A DNA stretch of 37,431 bases from Psychromonas sp. (lineage in GTDB: Bacteria > Pseudomonadota > Gammaproteobacteria > Enterobacterales > Psychromonadaceae), in NCBI GenBank assembly GCA_013619145.1, contig JABXKR010000134.1, forward strand, positions 1 through 37,431. The letters run 5' to 3'. Under the pieces are notes generated by a model that saw only the letters and a list, made by a program, of their open reading frames with translations, did not search any database and had not been told where the DNA came from. A program made the translations under genes and the position numbers. Below are positions 3,152 through 24,619 of this stretch, in pieces. Within the stretch, counting starts at the first letter, position 1; each line of letters begins with the position of its first letter.

Positions 3152-3880
3152 TTAAAGATCTAAAACTTCTTTAACAAATGGAATGGTAAGTTTACGTTTT
3201 GCTACCAGTGAAGCGTTATCTAATCGGTCCAGGGTTTTTAATAAGGTATTCATCTCTCGTGATAAACGGTTTAATAAAAATCGCCCGACATCAACGGGTA
3301 ACTTCATACCTTTAAGTTGCGCTCGTAATTGCAGAGCACCGAGTTTTTCTTCATCATTAAGTGGTGATAAATGGTAACAGGCCCCCCACTCAAATCGGGA
3401 AACAAGATCGTCAAGCTTTATACCCAACTGTTTAGGTAAATCGCTTGCACAAAGCACTAAACTTGCACCTGACGGGCGATTGCTTTTGTTATCTAGCCAG
3501 CGATTATAAAAATCAAAAAGAGCTTTTTCCCACGTTTTATCGCCCGCAATTGCACCTACATTATCAATACAAACAAGTGTTACAGCTTCCATATTTTCAA
3601 AAATATCTAAGCTCATGCCCTGATAATGATCAAGTGGAATATAAGCAACACTTTCACCGCGCTCATCAACTTCGGAGCATAATGCATGTAATAGATGTGA
3701 GCGCCCACTACCGGACTCCCCCCACATATATAAAACAGGTTCACCCAAACCAACAACACTATTTTTCAGTTGTGTTAATAAGCTTGCGTTTTGACCCGGA
3801 TAAAAACTGGCAAAAGTTTCATCGTCTGGAAATTTGAGTGCTAATAATGGATATTGAAAGCGCAATTCATCCTGCGGCAT
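3152..3880 (-). CDS. hda: DnaA regulatory inactivator Hda
   Basis: DnaA-like AAA+ protein of 242 aa with Walker A GESGSGRSH; lacks the DnaA domain IV length. Confidence 0.9.
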   Translation of the reverse strand: MPQDELRFQYPLLALKFPDDETFASFYPGQNASLLTQLKNSVVGLGEPVLYMWGESGSGRSHLLHALCSEVDERGESVAYIPLDHYQGMSLDIFENMEAVTLVCIDNVGAIAGDKTWEKALFDFYNRWLDNKSNRPSGASLVLCASDLPKQLGIKLDDLVSRFEWGACYHLSPLNDEEKLGALQLRAQLKGMKLPVDVGRFLLNRLSREMNTLLKTLDRLDNASLVAKRKLTIPFVKEVLDL

Positions 3881-8397: not shown

Positions 8398-8473
8398 TGG
8401 CTCCTCTTGCTGGGCTTGAACCAGCGACACACGGATTAACAGTCCGTTGCTCTACCAACTGAGCTAAAGAGGA
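8398..8473 (-). tRNA. tRNA-Asn (GTT), with encoded CCA
   Basis: Reverse complement TCCTCTTTAGCTCAGTTGGTAGAGCAACGGACTGTTAATCCGTGTGTCGCTGGTTCAAGCCCAGCAAGAGGAGCCA, complete cloverleaf. Confidence 0.97.
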
Positions 8474-8649: not shown

Positions 8650-8725
8650 TGGCTCCTCTTGCTGGGCTTGAACCAGCGACACACGGATTAACAGTCCGTT
8701 GCTCTACCAACTGAGCTAAAGAGGA
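8650..8725 (-). tRNA. tRNA-Asn (GTT), with encoded CCA, second copy
   Basis: Identical over 76 nt to 8398-8473. Confidence 0.97.
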
Positions 8726-15757: not shown

Positions 15758-16405
15758 CTAACAGTTAGTTATTGCCTTTTTAATAAATACCGCCAGTGTA
15801 TCCATTGCCCGCTGTAAATGGGCTTGCTGGGTAAATCCGCTCTTTACTCTAGGTTTAAGGTCGTGGTTACCATCTTCAAGCCATAACCATTCAATATTGG
15901 CAGGCAGGCCATAACTATCAACCTCCTCTTTATTTCCCATGGTATCTCGCTCACCTTGAATAATTAAGAGATCCTGCTTAATTAATGGAAAATGTTCAGT
16001 GCGCAATTTTTCCGGCTTACCAGTTGGGTGAAACGGGAAACCTAAGCAGGCAACGCCTTTAATAAGACTATCATCTGCAATCACTTTTTCACTGGATAAC
16101 TGCGCTGCCACTAAACTTGCGATACGCCCTCCCATAGACTTACCGCCAATCACCATAGGTTGCTCTATGCCGGCAATCAGCGCTGCATATTGCACAATTA
16201 ACTTAGGCGCCCGCTCCGGTGGTCGACGCGTGCCGTTATCAATACGTTGCTGCATATAGGGGAAATTAAAACGGGCCACGCGAATCCCCCGCAAAGCCAG
16301 CCCTTGCGCGATGCTTTCCATAAAAACGGAATCAGCGCCCGCGCCTGCACCATGTGCAAAAACAAATAAAGGCCCGTCAACGGGACCGTTGTAGATTATT
16401 TTCAT
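15758..16405 (-). CDS. alpha/beta hydrolase, KANL3/Tex30-type
   Basis: VFAHGAGAGADSVFMESIAQGLALRGIRVARFNFPYM, GGKSMGGRIASLVA, GNHDLKPR. Confidence 0.88.
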   Translation of the reverse strand: MKIIYNGPVDGPLFVFAHGAGAGADSVFMESIAQGLALRGIRVARFNFPYMQQRIDNGTRRPPERAPKLIVQYAALIAGIEQPMVIGGKSMGGRIASLVAAQLSSEKVIADDSLIKGVACLGFPFHPTGKPEKLRTEHFPLIKQDLLIIQGERDTMGNKEEVDSYGLPANIEWLWLEDGNHDLKPRVKSGFTQQAHLQRAMDTLAVFIKKAITNC

Positions 16406-16700
16406 TATTGTTCCTAGTTAAGTCGGGTTCAGTTTTTATAAAATGCAAAGGATAATGCTGATAATGCGTTAGCTGCGCTTCCATCGTCAAGCTTTGATCT
16501 TTTGGCGTTAACACTTTTCATTTGTGATTTCGCTAAAGTCCTCGAGCAAACAGGAAAAACGAAAACGGAAATATCCTAACCGAACAGCTTGTTATAAGCA
16601 AAATACAGCGCCCTGCTCTCTATTTTTTTGTAATGACAAAAAGCACAACGACAAAACAGCAAAAGGCAGTGGACAGATCTTTTTTACAGTAATAAGGATT

Positions 16701-16855
16701 TTCCGTGTTTCCACCGCAAACAGGGAACTTTTCCACCTTTCTACAATAGCTAGATCCTATTGTAAAATACAAACGCTTGATAAAATCAACAAAAGACGTA
16801 AAATTAATCTTTATTGCAAATGTTTGATGGGCGTTTTTCTTGTGGAAACACGGAA
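16701..16855. repeat. 155-bp segment bounded by a 14-bp perfect inverted repeat
   Basis: TTCCGTGTTTCCAC (16701-16714) and GTGGAAACACGGAA (16842-16855). Confidence 0.6.
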
Positions 16856-16874
16856 TTGTTCCGTCTAATAAGAT

Positions 16875-17497
16875 GTTAGTTGCATGATAAGCTAGTCTAG
16901 TTAACTCTTTACTTTATAAACTATAAAAGGAAAATTAATGTTTAAATATATTGTGATATTAGCGATCGCATTTGGGGGATATAAAGCTTTTCTATCCCCC
17001 GAAGGGTTTATGAAATCATCATCTAGTGAAGTGTATTCAGATGAATATAAGTTTCAAGTACAGTTCCCTAACAAACCTAAAGAAAAGTCACAAACGGTAG
17101 ATTTACCTGAATTTGGCAAAATTAAGTTAACTACTTATTATGTTCGAAGTCCTGAACTAGCGTGCTCTGTTGGGGTTTCGGATTATTTAGAGCAAACAGA
17201 AGTCTCGGGAGATATCTATGATCAAATAGATGTAGCCAAAAGACATTTGCTAAAAGGCTTTGGAGGTAGCATTAATAAAGAGGAGTTTATTTATAACGGA
17301 AGTGTAAGTGGTTATGAATTCAATATGCGAACAAAAAGCAATAAATTATTACAATCACGCATTTTTACATATGAAAACAATGCATATAACCTTATATGCC
17401 AATACCAAGATACTGATGACTATAGAATAAAAGTGAACGATTTCATGCAATCATTTACTTTTATTTAAATAGATTAATAGGTTACAGAGCAACTAAT
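16875..17497 (+). mobile_element. candidate integron-type gene cassette A
   Basis: 5' core GTTAGTTGC (16875-16883) complementary in 8 of 9 positions to GCAACTAAT (17489-17497), flanking a single + strand ORF. Confidence 0.5.
16938..17468 (+). CDS. hypothetical small membrane-anchored or secreted protein
   Basis: ORF with AG-rich RBS (aaaggaa); N-terminal hydrophobic segment MFKYIVILAIAFGGYKAFL. Confidence 0.7.
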   Translation: MFKYIVILAIAFGGYKAFLSPEGFMKSSSSEVYSDEYKFQVQFPNKPKEKSQTVDLPEFGKIKLTTYYVRSPELACSVGVSDYLEQTEVSGDIYDQIDVAKRHLLKGFGGSINKEEFIYNGSVSGYEFNMRTKSNKLLQSRIFTYENNAYNLICQYQDTDDYRIKVNDFMQSFTFI

Positions 17498-17573
17498 CGG
17501 GTAGCCTGAGATATCTAGCCTCCAGCCCCCACACCACCCTGCATTCGGCTCCACACAGGGCGGTTCATCTATC

Positions 17574-17624
17574 GAAATGTCATGATCAAGTATTTAATCT
17601 TGTTAAAGACTTGATCCCATTAAC
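17574..17624. repeat. REP-like palindrome, copy 1
   Basis: gaaatgtcatgaTCAAGTATTTAATCTTGttaaagacttgatcccattaac; homologous to 18287-18346. Confidence 0.6.
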
Positions 17625-17635
17625 TTTTTTGAGGC

Positions 17636-18242
17636 GTTAAGTGTATTAGGAGCATTATGGAACAAAATCAAATTTTTACCCGACCAACATATTTGGAGGT
17701 TTCCAGTCATTTTCTCCATGATGCCATCGACTTCAACATTAGATACAAGTTTTGTATGGAAAGTGATGGACCACTTTTTGGTGAGCCGAAGTCTAGGCGA
17801 GCAAAGTGTTTCATTGACCTGAGAATGGGGATCGAGTCAGATCTAAAGTCACTGATATGCTATCACGACTTCAATAATAGAAAAGGTAAAACGCTAGTAA
17901 AATGGATTGAAAAGTTTCGGCATAATATAGAACGAATGACGAATCGAATTGAGCCATATTTAGCAGCCGAGTTCATGGAAAAGCATAAATCGAACTTACT
18001 AAAGCTAGAAAAACTACCAGTAGATTTAAGGTATCGCTTCGATACATGGGAGTTCAGTGAAAACCAGGAAGCGTTGTACGATGAAACCATAGGTTGCAAT
18101 AGATGGTTAACGGAAATGTATCAAATCTTAGAACAGTTGATAGATTTGGCTAATTGCAATCTAAAACAACACGGTGGCATTGTAACAATGGAGGAAGTAT
18201 TAAAAGAGTTAACTGAGCCAAGGTTCAAAAAACACACTTAAC
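17636..18242 (+). mobile_element. candidate integron-type gene cassette B
   Basis: 5' core GTTAAGT (17636-17642, fits GTTRRRY) is the exact reverse complement of ACTTAAC (18236-18242, fits RYYYAAC); the stop codon lies in the latter. Confidence 0.65.
17657..18241 (+). CDS. hypothetical protein
   Basis: ORF with RBS ttaggagc; no recognised family. Confidence 0.7.
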   Translation: MEQNQIFTRPTYLEVSSHFLHDAIDFNIRYKFCMESDGPLFGEPKSRRAKCFIDLRMGIESDLKSLICYHDFNNRKGKTLVKWIEKFRHNIERMTNRIEPYLAAEFMEKHKSNLLKLEKLPVDLRYRFDTWEFSENQEALYDETIGCNRWLTEMYQILEQLIDLANCNLKQHGGIVTMEEVLKELTEPRFKKHT

Positions 18243-18286
18243 TAATAAGGATAGGTCGTAAGGATGTCAGCGAAATGTCAGGGTCA

Positions 18287-18346
18287 GAAATGTCAGGGTC
18301 AAGTCTTTAATCTTGATATCAATATTAAAGATTTGACCCCATTAAC
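18287..18346. repeat. REP-like palindrome, copy 2
   Basis: gGGGTCAAGTCTTTAATCTTGatatcaatATTAAAGATTTGACCCC-type stem; also a local duplication of gggtcagaaatgtca. Confidence 0.65.
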
Positions 18347-18421
18347 TGCTCGCCGGTGAGAAAGGCGTTATATTTTTTGACAATAGTCAGTACAAATCGA
18401 AAATAAAAAGGAGGATTAAGG

Positions 18422-19072
18422 GTGGAGATTAGTCTTTTCGGAATGTTTGTGACGGTAGCTGTAGCGCATTTCCTTGCACTTATCAGTCCCGGACCTGATT
18501 TTATACTTGTGGTAAAAAGTGCAATTAAAAATGGAAGTAAAAAATCCATTAGTGTGGCGGCTGGCATCGCTAGTGCTAATGCAGTGTACATTAGTTTGTG
18601 TTTAATTGGTGTTGGTTCCATTCTTGCGAGTTCTTTGATGGTTATGGTCGTTCTTAAAGTGGCTGGCGGTCTTTTTCTTATTTATTTGGCAATAATGGCT
18701 TTACGAGCAAAGAAAAGCAGTTACAAGGATTTGGCTTTAAGCAAGACAGATAGCCTTTATGTAGAAACAACCTTCACACGCGAATACCTGACGGGATTTA
18801 TGTCAGGTATTTTGAACCCGAAAAACCTACTATTTTACATGAGTTTATTTACGGTTGTTTTAACGAAGGATGTTAACTTTACCTTCAAAGTGGTGCTTGG
18901 TGTTTGGATGACATTGGTCGTATTCTTATGGGATTTATCGATTATTTATCTTTTATCAACAAGCAAGGTACAACGTAAGTTCTCCAAAATAGCGTATTAC
19001 TTAGACAAGTTTACTGGTGCTGTTTTAGGCATAATTGGTTTCACAATAGTGAAGTCTGCGCTTACGAAATAG
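18422..19072 (+). CDS. LysE/RhtB family exporter
   Basis: ALISPGPDFILVVKSAIKNGSKKSISVAAGIASANAVYISLCLIGVGSILASS. Confidence 0.93.
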   Translation: MEISLFGMFVTVAVAHFLALISPGPDFILVVKSAIKNGSKKSISVAAGIASANAVYISLCLIGVGSILASSLMVMVVLKVAGGLFLIYLAIMALRAKKSSYKDLALSKTDSLYVETTFTREYLTGFMSGILNPKNLLFYMSLFTVVLTKDVNFTFKVVLGVWMTLVVFLWDLSIIYLLSTSKVQRKFSKIAYYLDKFTGAVLGIIGFTIVKSALTK

Positions 19073-19170
19073 GATGGTGGAACAAACTATAAGTTGCTGC
19101 ACTGGACTGTTTACGGCTGTCACGGTTTTTGTGGGTAACATCAATTTACTTATGAAAGGGTAATTATCTT

Positions 19171-19809
19171 TTGAATTTTGAAACTTGGTTATTATTTTTT
19201 GTAGCTTATTTAACAATTACTTTATCTCCTGGCCCAAATGTTTTGCTGGTGATAAAAAATGCGGTTAAGTATGGTTATAAAGCAGCAAGCGTTACTATTC
19301 TGTTAAATCTCATCTGTCAGCTTATGATCATTACATTAGTTGCTTATGGCGCTGGTGCATTATTAGAAAAGTCCCCTATATTGTTTTTCGCTTTAAAGTT
19401 AACAGGCGGGGCTTACTTGATTTATCTTGGTATAACAGGCCTTCTTACAAAAGTGGGATCTAGCCATACAGAGAAAATAGAAGAGATATCTCCAATACAA
19501 TTTTCTTATTATAAAGTGTGCAAAGAAGCTTTTTTAGTTTCAGCAAGTAATCCTAAAACGATAATTTTTCTTTCAGCTTTTTTACCGCAATTTATAGCAA
19601 CTGACGCATCTATTGGTTGGCAATTTACAATAATGTTTTTGACAATTTGTTTTATTGTCATGTCTGTGCATTTAGTTTATTCGTATATCGCGAAAAATAT
19701 AAATAAGAAATGGTCAGGCTTAAAAGCACAACCTATTTTTTCTAAAATAACAAACAGTGCATTTTTAGCCTTTGGTTGTGGTGTGCTATTAAGTAGTCGT
19801 ACAACGTAA
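19171..19809 (+). CDS. LysE/RhtB family exporter
   Basis: YLTITLSPGPNVLLVIKNAVKYGYKAASVTILLN; TTG start. Confidence 0.92.
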   Translation: MNFETWLLFFVAYLTITLSPGPNVLLVIKNAVKYGYKAASVTILLNLICQLMIITLVAYGAGALLEKSPILFFALKLTGGAYLIYLGITGLLTKVGSSHTEKIEEISPIQFSYYKVCKEAFLVSASNPKTIIFLSAFLPQFIATDASIGWQFTIMFLTICFIVMSVHLVYSYIAKNINKKWSGLKAQPIFSKITNSAFLAFGCGVLLSSRTT

Positions 19810-19817
19810 ATATAAGC

Positions 19818-19903
19818 AAATTAACAGGACTGAAACAGCGGGCTATTTTCGCTACGCACAAGTTTAGCCCACAATTTTCAGCCCGTTAATTTGGGCGTTA
19901 CTT
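19818..19903 (+). other. candidate attC site between LysE-type cassettes
   Basis: AAATTAACAGGACTGAAAcagcGGGCTA..loop..TAGCCCacaatTTTCAGCCCGTTAATTT (long imperfect palindrome), followed by GGGCGTTACTT. Confidence 0.65.
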
Positions 19904-19931
19904 TTTGAATTTAACGAAATAAGGATTATTC

Positions 19932-20567
19932 GTGTCTGATTTTAGTTTTTGGTTATTATTTTTTTCCACTGCATTAGCTTTGAATATCGCTCCTGGGCCT
20001 GATCTTTTATATATATTGACCAAGACAATAGCGAATGGGAAAAAAGTAGGTATCGCATCTTCTCTGGGAGTATGTACAGGGGCGCTTTTTCATGTGGCAG
20101 CAGCTGCTGTTGGTTTATCTGCTATTTTGGTTTCATCCGCATTTTTGTTTTCAATAGTGAAATTTTTAGGGGCTGGTTACCTAATCTATTTAGCCTACCA
20201 GTCATTTCGTTCTGCTGGTACTAGTTTAAATATCAAGTCAGAGGAGCAGCCTAAAGAATCCGCATGGACAGCTTTTAAGCAGGGTGTACTTGTTGATATT
20301 TTAAATCCTAAAGTGGCTATCTTTTTCATGGCATTTTTACCCCAGTTTATTCGCGATGGCTATGGCTCTGTTCCCATTCAGCTACTTTATTTAGGTTTGT
20401 TAGTTATTGCGGTCGCTGTTGTAGTTGAAGTTATTTATGTATTAGTCGCATCAAAACTGACAGAAAAAGTAAGAAGCAGCAAGACTGCCAGTGTATGGAT
20501 CGATCGTGTTGTCGGAACGATTTTTACTGGATTAGGGTTGAAACTGGCAATAAGTTCGAGCATATAA
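19932..20567 (+). CDS. LysE/RhtB family exporter
   Basis: ALALNIAPGPDLLYILTKTIANGKKVGIASSLGVCTGALFH; GTG start. Confidence 0.93.
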   Translation: MSDFSFWLLFFSTALALNIAPGPDLLYILTKTIANGKKVGIASSLGVCTGALFHVAAAAVGLSAILVSSAFLFSIVKFLGAGYLIYLAYQSFRSAGTSLNIKSEEQPKESAWTAFKQGVLVDILNPKVAIFFMAFLPQFIRDGYGSVPIQLLYLGLLVIAVAVVVEVIYVLVASKLTEKVRSSKTASVWIDRVVGTIFTGLGLKLAISSSI

Positions 20568-20656
20568 CCTAGTGTCTTAAAAGCGCTTAAAATGCGATAT
20601 CAAAGCGCTATTTTTTCTAATATTTGCTGTGAGATAATTCTACAGCCTCGTTATAT
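20562..20656 (+). other. candidate attC site
   Basis: ATATAAC (20562-20568) and exact complement GTTATAT (20650-20656) bracketing a 95-bp imperfectly palindromic spacer directly after the stop and before the next gene's RBS. Confidence 0.65.
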
Positions 20657-20670
20657 TTCAAGGAGAGTGT

Positions 20671-21135
20671 GTGCACTTTATTTCAGCCACTGAGGCTCAC
20701 TATAAGGGAATTTTAAATTTAGTTCCTTCTCGTGAAGAGTTATATCTTGTTTATCCAAGCGGTACTTTCCCTTTGGATAATTCTCAGTTACAACAACTTG
20801 CAAAAACACGCAGTGATTTAACCGTCGCTATTGATGGTGAGCATGTCGTGGCTTTTGCTAACCTGTATCAGGTTAATCAAAGCTGCTCAGCCTTTATCGG
20901 GAATGTTGTGGTTGCCAATTCACACAGAGGACAGGGAATAGGTAAAGCTTTAACATTACACATGGCTGAAGTATGCCAAGTAAAATATGAAGCAACTCCC
21001 CATTTATCTGTGTTCAACTTTAATACTAAAGCTTTGTTAATGTATACAGGATTAGGCTTTAAGCCATATGCAATTGAGCAACGTGAAAACTTAACAAAAG
21101 AACCTGTCGCGCTTGTACATATGAGCCTGCGTTAG
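20671..21135 (+). CDS. GNAT family N-acetyltransferase
   Basis: FIGNVVVANSHRGQGIGKALTLHMAEV acetyl-CoA binding motif; GTG start after AAGGAGAG. Confidence 0.92.
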   Translation: MHFISATEAHYKGILNLVPSREELYLVYPSGTFPLDNSQLQQLAKTRSDLTVAIDGEHVVAFANLYQVNQSCSAFIGNVVVANSHRGQGIGKALTLHMAEVCQVKYEATPHLSVFNFNTKALLMYTGLGFKPYAIEQRENLTKEPVALVHMSLR

Positions 21136-21175
21136 AACATTACAAATCAAGCGAGGCATTACGGCTGTTTGCGGC

Positions 21176-21943
21176 GTTATAAGGAGAGTGTGTTGGAAAA
21201 ATTTGCTGTACTGTCAGATATTCATAGCAACGTATTTGCTCTTAAAGCTGTTGTTGATGATGCGAAATCAAAAGGTGTGACAACTTTTATTAATCTTGGT
21301 GATATTTTATATGGACCGATTGCTCCAAGAGAAACATATGATTATTTGCTTTCTCTGGATGCAATAACGATTTCGGGCAATCAGGACCGACAAATTTATG
21401 AGGCCACAGAAGCTGATATTATTTCTAATCCAACCATGCAGTTTATCTTGAATGATTTGGGTAAATCACCCTTGTTATGGATGCAGCAGTTACCTTTCGA
21501 TTTACAGATTAACGCTGATATTTATGCGTGCCATGGCACCCCGAGCGATGATCTTGTATATCTATTAGAGGAGATCAGTTCAGGTCGTGCCGAACTGCGA
21601 TCTGATAGTGAAATAATTGAGTTATTAAATGGCGTATCTTCACCGGTAATTATTTGCGGGCACACTCACACGCCAAGATGTGTTGAGTTATCAACGGGTC
21701 AAATAGTTATTAATCCTGGGAGCGTCGGCCTTCAAGCTTATAGCGACGATCAACCTAGCGTGCATTCTATGCAAAATCATTCATCAAAAGCATCCTATGT
21801 AACCTTGCAGAAAAAAGCAGATAAACAGTGGGAGATAGTGTTTCACAAAGTTGATTATGATCTACAAAGTGCAATAAATGCCGCCAAATCACAAGGTCGT
21901 GATGATTGGGTGCATTTCCTGTCCACAGGCAGGTGCTTATAAC
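21176..21943 (+). mobile_element. candidate integron-type gene cassette G (metallophosphoesterase)
   Basis: 5' core GTTATAA (21176-21182) is the exact reverse complement of TTATAAC (21937-21943), which contains the TAA stop. Confidence 0.65.
21190..21942 (+). CDS. metallophosphoesterase (YfcE/MJ0936-like)
   Basis: FAVLSDIHSNVFALKAVVDD, NLGDILYGP, GNQDRQI, CHGTPSD, CGHTHTPR, NPGSVG. Confidence 0.93.
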   Translation: MLEKFAVLSDIHSNVFALKAVVDDAKSKGVTTFINLGDILYGPIAPRETYDYLLSLDAITISGNQDRQIYEATEADIISNPTMQFILNDLGKSPLLWMQQLPFDLQINADIYACHGTPSDDLVYLLEEISSGRAELRSDSEIIELLNGVSSPVIICGHTHTPRCVELSTGQIVINPGSVGLQAYSDDQPSVHSMQNHSSKASYVTLQKKADKQWEIVFHKVDYDLQSAINAAKSQGRDDWVHFLSTGRCL

Positions 21944-21974
21944 AACGCAAGCAATCGGCGTGTAAAATTGCACA

Positions 21975-22004
21975 AAAGGTAAATAAAGGTAAATAAAGGT
22001 AAAT
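21975..22004 (+). repeat. three tandem copies of AAAGGTAAAT immediately upstream of a start codon
   Basis: AAAGGTAAAT x3 read directly; ATG at 22006. Confidence 0.95.
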
Positions 22005-22005
22005 C

Positions 22006-22623
22006 ATGCACCGAATCATAGTTTCAGATATTTTTGGAAAAACAAAATCATTAGAGAAAATATCAGATTCACTATCTGGAACTGTAGAAATTTTTGATCC
22101 CTACGATTCTGTATCAATGAATTTCAAGACAGAGCAGGAAGCCTATGCACACTTTAGTTCTGAAGTTGGCTTGGAAAAATACACAGAGAAGCTTAAAGAA
22201 TATTTGTTGAATCTTAAAAAACCGGTATCTTTGCTTGGGTTTAGTGTCGGAGCTTCAGCAATATGGAAACTATCAGCAGAGCAAGAGATCGTTAATGTTT
22301 TGGGCTCAGTATGCTTCTACAGTTCTCAAATCCGACACTACAGAGAGATAGTGCCACAATTTCCGGTTCAACTTGTCTTCCCAAGTGATGAAAATAGCTT
22401 CTCGATAACTGAGCTGATAGAACAACTTAAAAAAAATAAGCGAGTAAAAATTCACCAAGCGCCATACCTTCATGGATTTATGAATTTTCATTCTCCAAAC
22501 TTTACCCCTTATGCATACGCCCTATACTTAAGGGCTTTGTGCAATGTGCCATGTAACACCTGTATCCAAATGAGCGAATTCTTCAGAATAAGCGACTTCA
22601 GCAAACGCTTTGTGAGCGGCTAA
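22006..22623 (+). CDS. alpha/beta hydrolase fold protein (dienelactone-hydrolase-like)
   Basis: VSLLGFSVGASAIWKLS nucleophile elbow, C-terminal HGF. Confidence 0.65.
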   Translation: MHRIIVSDIFGKTKSLEKISDSLSGTVEIFDPYDSVSMNFKTEQEAYAHFSSEVGLEKYTEKLKEYLLNLKKPVSLLGFSVGASAIWKLSAEQEIVNVLGSVCFYSSQIRHYREIVPQFPVQLVFPSDENSFSITELIEQLKKNKRVKIHQAPYLHGFMNFHSPNFTPYAYALYLRALCNVPCNTCIQMSEFFRISDFSKRFVSG

Positions 22624-22662
22624 CTCACTAATTGGAGGCTAGCAGCAAGTGGCGAGTTATTA
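22618..22662 (+). other. short candidate attC-like hairpin
   Basis: TAACTCAC..GTGGCGAGTTA; the stop codon lies in the left arm as for cassettes B and G. Confidence 0.45.
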
Positions 22663-22757
22663 TGTCTATAGCTAGCAAGCGTATAGATCCAAATGAGTTT
22701 CGTGAAAATGGTTGATTTAGCGTAGTATGTCGGTAATTGAATATACTGAAGTTATCT

Positions 22758-23048
22758 ATGACTATTGAAGTAACAAATCTGCCAGATCCTGAAGTAACAT
22801 GTGCAAAATGCCAAGCTTGCTGTTGTCGTTTAGAAGTTATGATTGTTACTGACACTGGTGTGCCAGAGGAACATATTGCAGCTGATGCCTGGGGAGGTCA
22901 AGTTATGGCTCGTTTAGATGATGGTTGGTGTTCAGCCTTAGATCGCGATACCTTGATGTGTACAATCTACGAAAATCGACCATGGATTTGCCGAGAATTT
23001 GAAATGGGTTCGTATGAGTGTCTCAATGAATATAACGAAAATACGTAA
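22758..23048 (+). CDS. YkgJ-family cysteine-cluster protein
   Basis: VTCAKCQACCCRLEVM..WCSALDRDTLMCTIYENRPWICREFEMGS. Confidence 0.88.
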   Translation: MTIEVTNLPDPEVTCAKCQACCCRLEVMIVTDTGVPEEHIAADAWGGQVMARLDDGWCSALDRDTLMCTIYENRPWICREFEMGSYECLNEYNENT

Positions 23049-23244
23049 CGGTTTTACCTAGCACTAATTGATAGATGATTTCTTCTTTTTGCGGTCGTCT
23101 ACTCTTCCCCTCGAAACACAGCATCGTTCAAACCTCCTTCCTATGTTCACTAAATAGCCAACCTGAATTAACACCACCTACAAGGCGGGAGATCCGCTTT
23201 TATTTTGCAGGTAATTCAATGTATTAGAATAGCAAAGCAATTCA

Positions 23245-23307
23245 GAAAATGGCTTGAGCGCTCAAAAAGAAAATCGCCACTTCAGTTGGCAAGGTGAATC
23301 CGCCTGA
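23245..23307 (+). pseudogene. 3'-terminal fragment of a homologue of the 13250-14275 gene
   Basis: Translates ENGLSAQKENRHFSWQGESA* versus EKGLVTQKPNRHFSWQGAAA*; many differences at third positions. Confidence 0.8.
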
Positions 23308-23350
23308 TAGCAAAATGAGCTTATAGCCAAGCTCTCTGCCAAAGCGCCCA

Positions 23351-23384
23351 AAAAAAGCCCGCTAGTTAATCTCTCGGGCTTTTT
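23351..23384 (-). terminator. rho-independent terminator, possibly bidirectional
   Basis: aaaaaAGCCCGctagttaatctctCGGGCTttttt. Confidence 0.75.
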
Positions 23385-23407
23385 AAAACTACAGGTTAAC
23401 TGGACAA

Positions 23408-24619
23408 TTAATCAATGCAGGCTTGTTGATTAAACTCAGCTTTTAACGCCAAGCGTTCCCTTTCTGCTAAGTACATGAAAAACAGAGCAATTAAACAAAA
23501 CAGGGCTGCGGCGATAAATACCGCATAATAACTGAAATATTGTGCGATCCCCCCCACTATTAGGCTGCTTGATAATATGCTGAGCATTATGCTGTTATTA
23601 AACAGTGTTGAGGCTAAACCTATCTGTTTTTTCATCAAATCCTGTACAACCAGCATACCTAAACTGGCGTTGATACCAATAAACACACCGTTAAATAGCT
23701 GCAGTAACATAAACTGCCAGAGCTGTTGTGCAACTAGCAAACCAGCAAAAAATAGCAGGCCGCTAATACAAGCGATATAGATTAGTCGCGTTGCACCGAA
23801 CCTCGGCGCAAGATAACCCGCACTTAACATAATTGGGATTTCAACAAAGGCCGCAATTCCCATCAGGTAGCCCACCCATTTAGAGTCAAAATTTAACTCT
23901 TGAGTGATATAAAGACTTATTGATGTGAGGTACATATTGTTGGCACTAAAGGCAAAAAAGATGGATATCAAAAAGAATAAGACGCCAGATATTTTTAGCC
24001 AATTCACGTTTTCGCTCTCAACCTGCTCTTCTTTAATCTGGCTATCAGTCATAGCAAAGCAAACAATAATAAATACCACTGCAGCAAAAAAAACCGCAAG
24101 CAGAAACGTTTGTTTAAAACCGAAAGAATCATTTATTAAAAAGGCCACTGGTGGTCCAATCACCCACGCCATAGCCATTGCTGCACGCATCATAGTAACA
24201 AATACTGCCGCTTTATCAGCAAGCTGGTTATCTGCAAAATCACGCCCCATGCTGAAAATTTGCGGTAAACAAACCGCACTTAACGACATAAAAAAAATAA
24301 CCGCACACAATATAGTGTAATAGTGATGACTCATTGCCAAAAAAATCGTAGTGATAATAAACCCAGTTTGGCCCGCTAAAACAATATACTTGCGACTTAA
24401 ACCCTTATCTGATTTTTTGGCAATATATTGCGAGACCAATACCCCGCTTAAAACCATGCAAGTAATCAAAATACCCATGCTTATTGGTGTAGCGTGAACT
24501 TCCTCAATCAGATAAAGACTTAATATAGGATAAATGAAGGCGGTACTTAGCCCGATAAAAAAACAGGTCAATAAATAGATAATCGATTGTTTGCTAAATA
24601 ACATGTTGCGCTCCTTCAT
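23408..24619 (-). CDS. MFS transporter, sugar-efflux SetA/SotB-like
   Basis: FFIGLSTAFIYPILSLYLIEEVHATPISMGILITCMVLSGVLVSQYIAKKSDKGLSRK. Confidence 0.85.
   Translation of the reverse strand: MKERNMLFSKQSIIYLLTCFFIGLSTAFIYPILSLYLIEEVHATPISMGILITCMVLSGVLVSQYIAKKSDKGLSRKYIVLAGQTGFIITTIFLAMSHHYYTILCAVIFFMSLSAVCLPQIFSMGRDFADNQLADKAAVFVTMMRAAMAMAWVIGPPVAFLINDSFGFKQTFLLAVFFAAVVFIIVCFAMTDSQIKEEQVESENVNWLKISGVLFFLISIFFAFSANNMYLTSISLYITQELNFDSKWVGYLMGIAAFVEIPIMLSAGYLAPRFGATRLIYIACISGLLFFAGLLVAQQLWQFMLLQLFNGVFIGINASLGMLVVQDLMKKQIGLASTLFNNSIMLSILSSSLIVGGIAQYFSYYAVFIAAALFCLIALFFMYLAERERLALKAEFNQQACID

Follow-up and report, generated by a model that had tools for sequence, protein, structure and literature searches.

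What kind of system is the run of short genes at positions 16875-22662 of a Psychromonas sp. contig, and how did these genes come to stand together? The stretch of DNA analysed here (the window) is the whole 37,431-bp contig, C102 (JABXKR010000134.1), of genome G000 (GCA_013619145.1), an assembly of 3.95 Mb in 336 contigs with an estimated completeness of 85.6%; G, C and L numbers are our handles for genomes, contigs and loci. The initial annotation, made from the sequence alone, had proposed an integron-type gene-cassette array without an integrase, similar to a CALIN (cluster of attC sites lacking an integron integrase). We find that it is very probably a decayed, integrase-less chromosomal integron, i.e., an attI platform with about eight captured single-gene cassettes. 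Taken by itself, the array is a known kind of system; the unusual part is that its attI segment is dispersed.

The attI site

The array is headed by the following features:

16701-16878, plus strand: attI site with the recombination core G^TTA at 16875-16878 and an inverted repeat inside, homologous to intI-adjacent DNA
16674-16689, strand not given: relic of a LexA-type box, CAGATCTTTTTTACAG, with 6 of 8 consensus bases

The left edge of the array had been placed at G^TTAGTTGC (16875) and taken for a cassette core. The core is real; however, it is not merely that of a cassette, but the end of the attI site. In G023, the DNA that lies immediately upstream of an intact integron integrase gene matches the segment 16698-16879 with 83% identity, and further members of the genus have attI regions that resemble it. 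ATGTTA is invariant in 19 copies of attI from four genomes. Over the 44 nt that end at the core, their mean ungapped identity is 0.71; over the next 44 nt, it is 0.30. Such a collapse of identity right after the core is the mark of one attI with differing first cassettes behind it. The LexA-type relic keeps the distance to attI that the intact box upstream of intI has in relatives: copies linked to intI carry CTGTTTGCGCATACAG at offset -33 (perfect where intI is present in G023), and the window has its 6 of 8 bases at -32. Since the attI had been overlooked, the feature is to be extended to the left, to about 16670. A candidate promoter, TTGATA-16-TAAAAT, lies within attI at 16777-16804, although such consensus matches are no more frequent here than in shuffled sequences. 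The open reading frame (ORF) of 114 aa at 16524-16868 was rejected as a gene; it crosses attI and has no Pfam match. It should be noted that the attI contains an exact 14-bp inverted repeat, TTCCGTGTTTCCAC (16701-16714) and GTGGAAACACGGAA (16842-16855), the arms of which could be integrase-binding arms or the ends of a mobile unit.

attC sites at the cassette junctions

We built an attC covariance model from 29 attC sites that adjoin integrase genes in relatives, leaving the window out. Applied to the window, the model found a single strong site, at 19810-19903 on the plus strand (48.6 bits, E = 9.2e-10). The bottom strand of this site, attC4, folds to the expected hairpin (z = -5.56; none of 200 shuffles was as good), and the most similar sequences are attC sites from the same genus, with 88.6% identity over 88 nt in L050 and 84% in L053. 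In addition, each junction was compared to 85 genuine attC sites, with 600 random segments of the same contig as the benchmark. The scores of the junctions 18349-18371, 19091-19131, 19814-19900 and 21143-21169 were reached by 0 to 0.17% of the 600 controls, whereas the junctions 21936-21958 and 17626-17640 were borderline, with 4-7% of the controls as good. For 23040-23410, this test gave no significant attC match. The junction features are as follows:

17489-17642, plus strand: attC1, broken; it runs from the left core GCAAC(T) through a group II intron remnant and a palindromic repeat to the right end, GAGGC-GTTAAGT, at 17636-17642; right half borderline (0.067 of controls)
17494-17570, minus strand: 3'-terminal remnant of a group II intron, inverted relative to the cassettes and directly next to the predicted R'' core GCAAC
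18236-18373, plus strand: attC2, interrupted by a palindrome at 18296-18339, with R'' ACTTAAC and the left half before it and the right half, CTCGCCGGTGAGAAAGGC-GTTATAT, after it; right half beats 99.8% of controls
19086-19131, plus strand: attC3, a relic that retains the left half and the central part but not the right core; equalled by 0 of 600 controls
19810-19903, plus strand: attC4, best preserved; R' core GTTACTT at 19897-19903, R'' eroded; identified by covariance model and fold
20562-20656, plus strand: attC5, another attC-like type; ATATAAC ... CTACAGCCTCGTTATAT; fold z = -2.1
21132-21182, plus strand: attC6, with R'' TTAGAAC, R' GTTATAA and a stem that is shortened; equalled by 0 of 600 controls; resembles a 55-nt attC on contig C129
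21937-21958, plus strand: attC7, of which only the left half remains (R'' TTATAACAACGCAAGCAATCGG), followed by 10-bp direct repeats; borderline (0.042 of controls)
22618-22669, plus strand: R''-like GGCTAAC and a 34-bp relic like a segment before an IS110-type transposase (IS, insertion sequence); a short match, 85-88%

Under the definition of a CALIN by two or more attC sites, the array has one site above the threshold of the model built here, plus three significant attC fragments. The initial annotation had named a lack of attC hits as the outcome that would speak against an array, and a hit was obtained. Its suspicion of eroded junctions after 19072 and 21135 was likewise borne out, as both are attC relics. 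The fold of attC6 was not significant.

The cores that had been quoted were all located at the positions given or within one base. GTTAAGT (17636) and ACTTAAC (18236) are exact reverse complements, as are GTTATAA (21176) and TTATAAC (21937), and the pair ATATAAC (20562) and GTTATAT (20650) is exact as well. The pairing of GTTAGTTGC (16875) with GCAACTAAT holds at 8 of 9 positions, but its right half is confounded: GCAAC belongs to the host, while TAATCGGG... is assigned to the group II intron end because it recurs after unrelated flanks. In a strict test of upstream and downstream core pairs, 1 of 9 array genes had such a pair, compared to 0 of the 27 other genes of the window, and at least one pair arose in 49 of 2000 shuffling trials. 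Matching of GTT/AAC cores alone was rejected as evidence; it is too weak, being about equal on both strands in relatives. The proposed attC identity therefore rests decisively on homology, core pairing alone being weak evidence. No Rfam match was found in the array, nor in the control attC array of a relative, so that this search is uninformative for attC. Past capture of cassettes is strongly supported by the sequence of the junctions.

Certain group II introns and IS1111/IS110-type elements are known to target attC sites. The remnant here may stem from an intron of the IIC-attC type, in which the 3' end lies inside an attC core and the intron runs opposite to the cassettes. The 77-nt intron end in attC1 has 91% identity to a segment just past a group II maturase ORF in G004 (L148; Pfam GIIM, 7.7e-22); other copies of this end are not all beside attC sites. 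Two related palindromes of the GGGTCAAGTCTTTAATCTTGATATCAATATTAAAGATTTGACCC type (17575-17630 and 18296-18339) lie inside two of the attC sites, and elsewhere in the genome they have only short partial matches. For attC5, no significant match to the model-R1 attC sites was found; its right end (TGAGATAATTCTACAGCCTCGTTATAT) recurs at repeated boundaries in integron arrays of G005 and G022. In the G022 integron (L050), the repeated boundary GAGAAATTCTACAGCCTCGTTAT, common to window positions 20631-20656, occurs at 3720, 4966, 5517 and 8081, in three of the four cases about 105 bp past an attC. This boundary may be an ORF-less cassette or a second type of attC.

Cassette genes

The genes from 16938 to 22623 all lie on the plus strand, as had been claimed, and comprise two ORFans, three LysE exporters, a GNAT acetyltransferase, a calcineurin-like phosphoesterase and one protein of no known family:

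16938-17468, plus strand: cassette 1 ORF, 176 aa, no Pfam match
17657-18241, plus strand: cassette 2 ORF, 194 aa, no Pfam match; 5' GTTAAGT and 3' ACTTAAC are exact reverse complements
18422-19072, plus strand: cassette 3 ORF, LysE-type exporter 1 (PF01810, 2.3e-29)
19171-19809, plus strand: cassette 4 ORF, LysE-type exporter 2 (PF01810, 4.3e-30)
19932-20567, plus strand: cassette 5 ORF, LysE-type exporter 3, with relatives scattered over many phyla
20671-21135, plus strand: cassette 6 ORF, GNAT acetyltransferase (PF00583, 9.7e-12)
21193-21942, plus strand: cassette 7 ORF, calcineurin-like phosphoesterase (PF12850, 9.7e-16)
22006-22623, plus strand: cassette 8 ORF, 205 aa, no Pfam match, with patchy relatives
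22737-23048, plus strand: CxxCxxCC-domain ORF, no attC recognisable

Among 296 genomes of the order, the ORFan genes at 16938 and 17657 have no homologue. The three LysE exporters share only 24-36% identity with one another, which led us to reject an origin by tandem duplication. Close relatives of the third exporter are found in Gammaproteobacteria, Desulfobacterota, Campylobacteraceae and metagenome-assembled genomes (MAGs) of Chloroflexi, the nearest named match being in Psychromonas marina (81%). In a Methylomonas MAG (L190), a relative of this gene is directly flanked by attC sites (2745-2878 and 3654-3784), and a relative of the gene at 22006 lies within an attC array of G022 (L167). The proposal of an integron-type cassette array is thus upheld by the strong attC match, three significant attC fragments on the same strand and the exporter relative between attC sites in another genome. 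The ORF of cassette 7 opens at 21169; however, the TTG at 21193, which follows AAGGAGA, is the likelier start from its sequence context. The CxxCxxCC ORF is a possible ninth cassette.

The other outcome that had been named as speaking against an array, identical gene order in relatives, did not occur either. At the equivalent position, the complete genome G005 has genes for MscS, a TRAP transporter and malic enzyme between the abhydrolase gene and the MiaB-side genes, and the array is absent.

Integrase genes

No match to the integron integrase profile TIGR02249 was found in the whole 37.4 kb of the contig, and a tblastn search with the G023 IntI found nothing in the window. The absence of an integrase, noted earlier for the window, is thus upheld for the entire contig, and the rest of the 85.6%-complete assembly has only an N-truncated intI on C34 (profile positions 71-314), the upstream end of an intI inside which contig C245 starts, and fragments (C184, C234 pieces). 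The term CALIN-like is correct in that no integrase is nearby, but the locus is more than a bare cluster of attC sites, since the array begins with an attI and, with it, the remains of the integrase promoter. In the genus, attC matches occur in 23 of 24 genomes; intI was found in 42 of 60 relatives.

The C34 locus (L009, 6943-7671) is another integron of this genome, with an IntI that lacks about 70 N-terminal residues and with one cassette; from about 8541, an apparent IS110/IS1111-type element lies directly past the R'' core of an attC. In G023, the intI on C71 is intact, and that on C24 (L287, 1715-2236) is internally deleted (residues about 78-218 are gone) and stands beside a second copy of the same attI.

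Copies of the attI segment at other loci

Copies of the attI segment were found on about ten contigs of G000 and at thirteen places in G023; G015 (6), G006 (5), G005, G010 and G021 have fewer. Other contigs of G000 that carry the 178-bp segment are C245, C281, C297, C209, C311, C149, C107, C130 and C194. The copies share the same bounds and are mostly without an integrase; among those examined, only three have integrase sequence alongside (C71, where it is intact; C24, with an internal deletion; C245, truncated by the contig end). Their left flanks are otherwise unrelated, the sequence past ATGTTA differs from copy to copy, and same-strand attC sites lie behind many of them. The arrays on C245, C281, C311 and C194 likewise start with the same core segment. 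On C209, an attI copy lies 190 bp behind the chromosomal gene hypD, the orthologues of which in G005, G021 and G023 have no attI there. The unrelated flanks, the attC sites behind the copies and the C209 case together suggest that the attI segment spread to new loci and was then loaded with cassettes, presumably in trans. Because the same segment is present at about ten loci, the window would be one platform of a dispersed multi-attI integron system.

The closest case on record is that of the delta-attI-type cassettes of resistance (mobile) integrons, in which a piece of attI ends a cassette in place of attC (PMC12901181). Such cassettes share with our case the presence of attI sequence away from intI and within cassette arrays: on G023 contig C23, attI copies are located within arrays, and a delta-attI-type arrangement is possible there. 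They differ in that here the attI segment heads arrays, and chromosomal genes precede it in the window and on C209. Instead of a cassette ORF that starts at a core, what stands ahead of attI is the opposite-strand abhydrolase gene in the window and hypD on C209, and delta-attI cassettes were rejected as a full explanation of the spread at these two loci.

Proposed mechanism and alternative explanations

In the decayed integron proposed here, IntI would have captured cassettes through site-specific recombination at the G^TT of the 16875 core. It could have acted in cis, with intI lost later, or in trans, encoded at a different locus; intI may also never have stood beside this copy. Erosion of the attC sites would have followed, through deletion and through the effects of an intron, a palindrome and an IS end, and the array is by now probably frozen; present inactivity is suggested by the eroded cores, together with the lack of an intact integrase in the assembly. 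The cassette genes are probably read from a putative promoter in or near attI, in addition to their own signals.

Several results weigh against this account. Only attC4 passes the covariance model, nothing else in the window exceeding 13 bits, and exact reciprocal cores bound only 2 of 8 cassettes. The right edge of the array is undefined. A clean empty site was not found for the window: homology to G004, the closest relative of the left flank, stops at 16492, about 180 bp short of the attI region, and G005 carries other genes there. The presence/absence comparisons are with genomes of relatives. Conceivably, the locus could be an ordinary vertically inherited gene run or a genomic island, with the likenesses to attI and attC due to chance; at most junctions no attC is intact, and few of the matched cores are perfect. 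However, this is extremely improbable, given an attC with E of 9e-10 by an independent model, attI homology that stops exactly at G^TTA in 19 copies, and a gene run that is unconserved in relatives. It is also very unlikely that an integrase encoded elsewhere inserted single cassettes at a non-att chromosomal site (the attG route), with no attI involved. Many attC matches do lie on separate contigs of this genome, and attG insertion is known from experiments cited in PMC12444791 and PMC12901181; yet a full attI with a promoter relic heads the array, and four more arrays in this genome have the same core segment at their start.

The dispersal of the attI segment allows further explanations. It might be a small non-autonomous mobile element, similar to a miniature inverted-repeat transposable element, that is merely attI-like and was spread by transposition, as the left bound at 16701, consistent over many copies, the unrelated left flanks and the inverted repeat TTCCGTGTTTCCAC / GTGGAAACACGGAA would lead one to expect. 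We regard this as unlikely, because in G023 the same segment adjoins an intact intI and has a LexA box at a fixed distance, the right bound is an exact integron core, and same-strand attC sites lie downstream of many copies. A hybrid of the two, an attI that is itself mobile, is a possible further variant. Alternatively, several complete integrons could have been present once, each losing intI independently while attI and cassettes stayed behind. The intI fragments of this genome (truncated on C34, pieces on C184 and C234), the internally deleted intI on C24 of G023 and the relics of the LexA box upstream of several intI-less copies, at the same spacing, give this some plausibility, but we consider it less likely than not: most copies have no trace of intI coding sequence alongside, unrelated left flanks that start at nearly the same place are not favoured by independent deletions, and the attI on C209 lies behind a hypD whose orthologues in three relatives have none.

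Within the decayed, integrase-less integron, the dispersed copies may tentatively be explained by a distributed integron, which is possible, if somewhat short of probable. One integrase locus, intact in G023 and decayed here, would act in trans on roughly ten attI platforms that have no integrase and are scattered over different chromosomal loci, with separate cassettes loaded at each, and the attI segment would have been mobilised with its promoter by some further mechanism.

Comparison with known systems

Sedentary chromosomal integrons, as in Vibrio, Xanthomonas and Shewanella, share with the window an attI core, attC hairpins, and single-gene cassettes of mixed function on one strand, including ORFans, and the genus studied here has such integrons with intact intI. 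The differences are the lack of an adjacent integrase, the low number of cassettes, the eroded attC sites, and about ten attI-like platforms compared to the typical one. With attC-targeting introns and IS elements, the array has in common an intron 3' end and an IS110-like end at two cassette junctions, although only remnants are present here. CALINs, defined in IntegronFinder 2 by two or more attC sites (PMC9024848) and exemplified in Xanthomonas (PMC12444791), likewise have cassettes without a nearby integrase, apart from the other arrays of the genome. In contrast, the window has kept a genuine attI with a promoter relic, and has one attC above the model, compared to the default threshold of two.

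Integrons typically have one attI, beside the integrase, and attI sites outside class 1 are poorly described and undetected by IntegronFinder (PMC9024848); therefore, platforms of the kind described here would go unnoticed. Nothing relevant to solo or multiple attI sites was found in the open-access literature, a scope in which absence proves little. If the platforms are live, cassettes would be captured and expressed at more than a single locus, and among the arrays at present classed as CALINs or degraded integrons there could be many active loading sites that an integrase serves in trans.

Flanking genes

Both flanks of the array are on the minus strand, with an alpha/beta hydrolase gene on the left (15758-16405) and a gene for a transporter of the MFS family on the right (23408-24619). 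The MFS/AraC pair of the window is found in G005 2.4 Mb away from the equivalent locus. Between the end of chromosomal homology to G004 and the attI region, the segment of about 180 bp at 16493-16670 contains TTATAACAAGCTGTT on the minus strand, which is like the left half of an attC. Elsewhere in the window, two tRNA-Asn genes (8398-8473 and 8650-8725) lie 177 bp apart and have equal Rfam scores.

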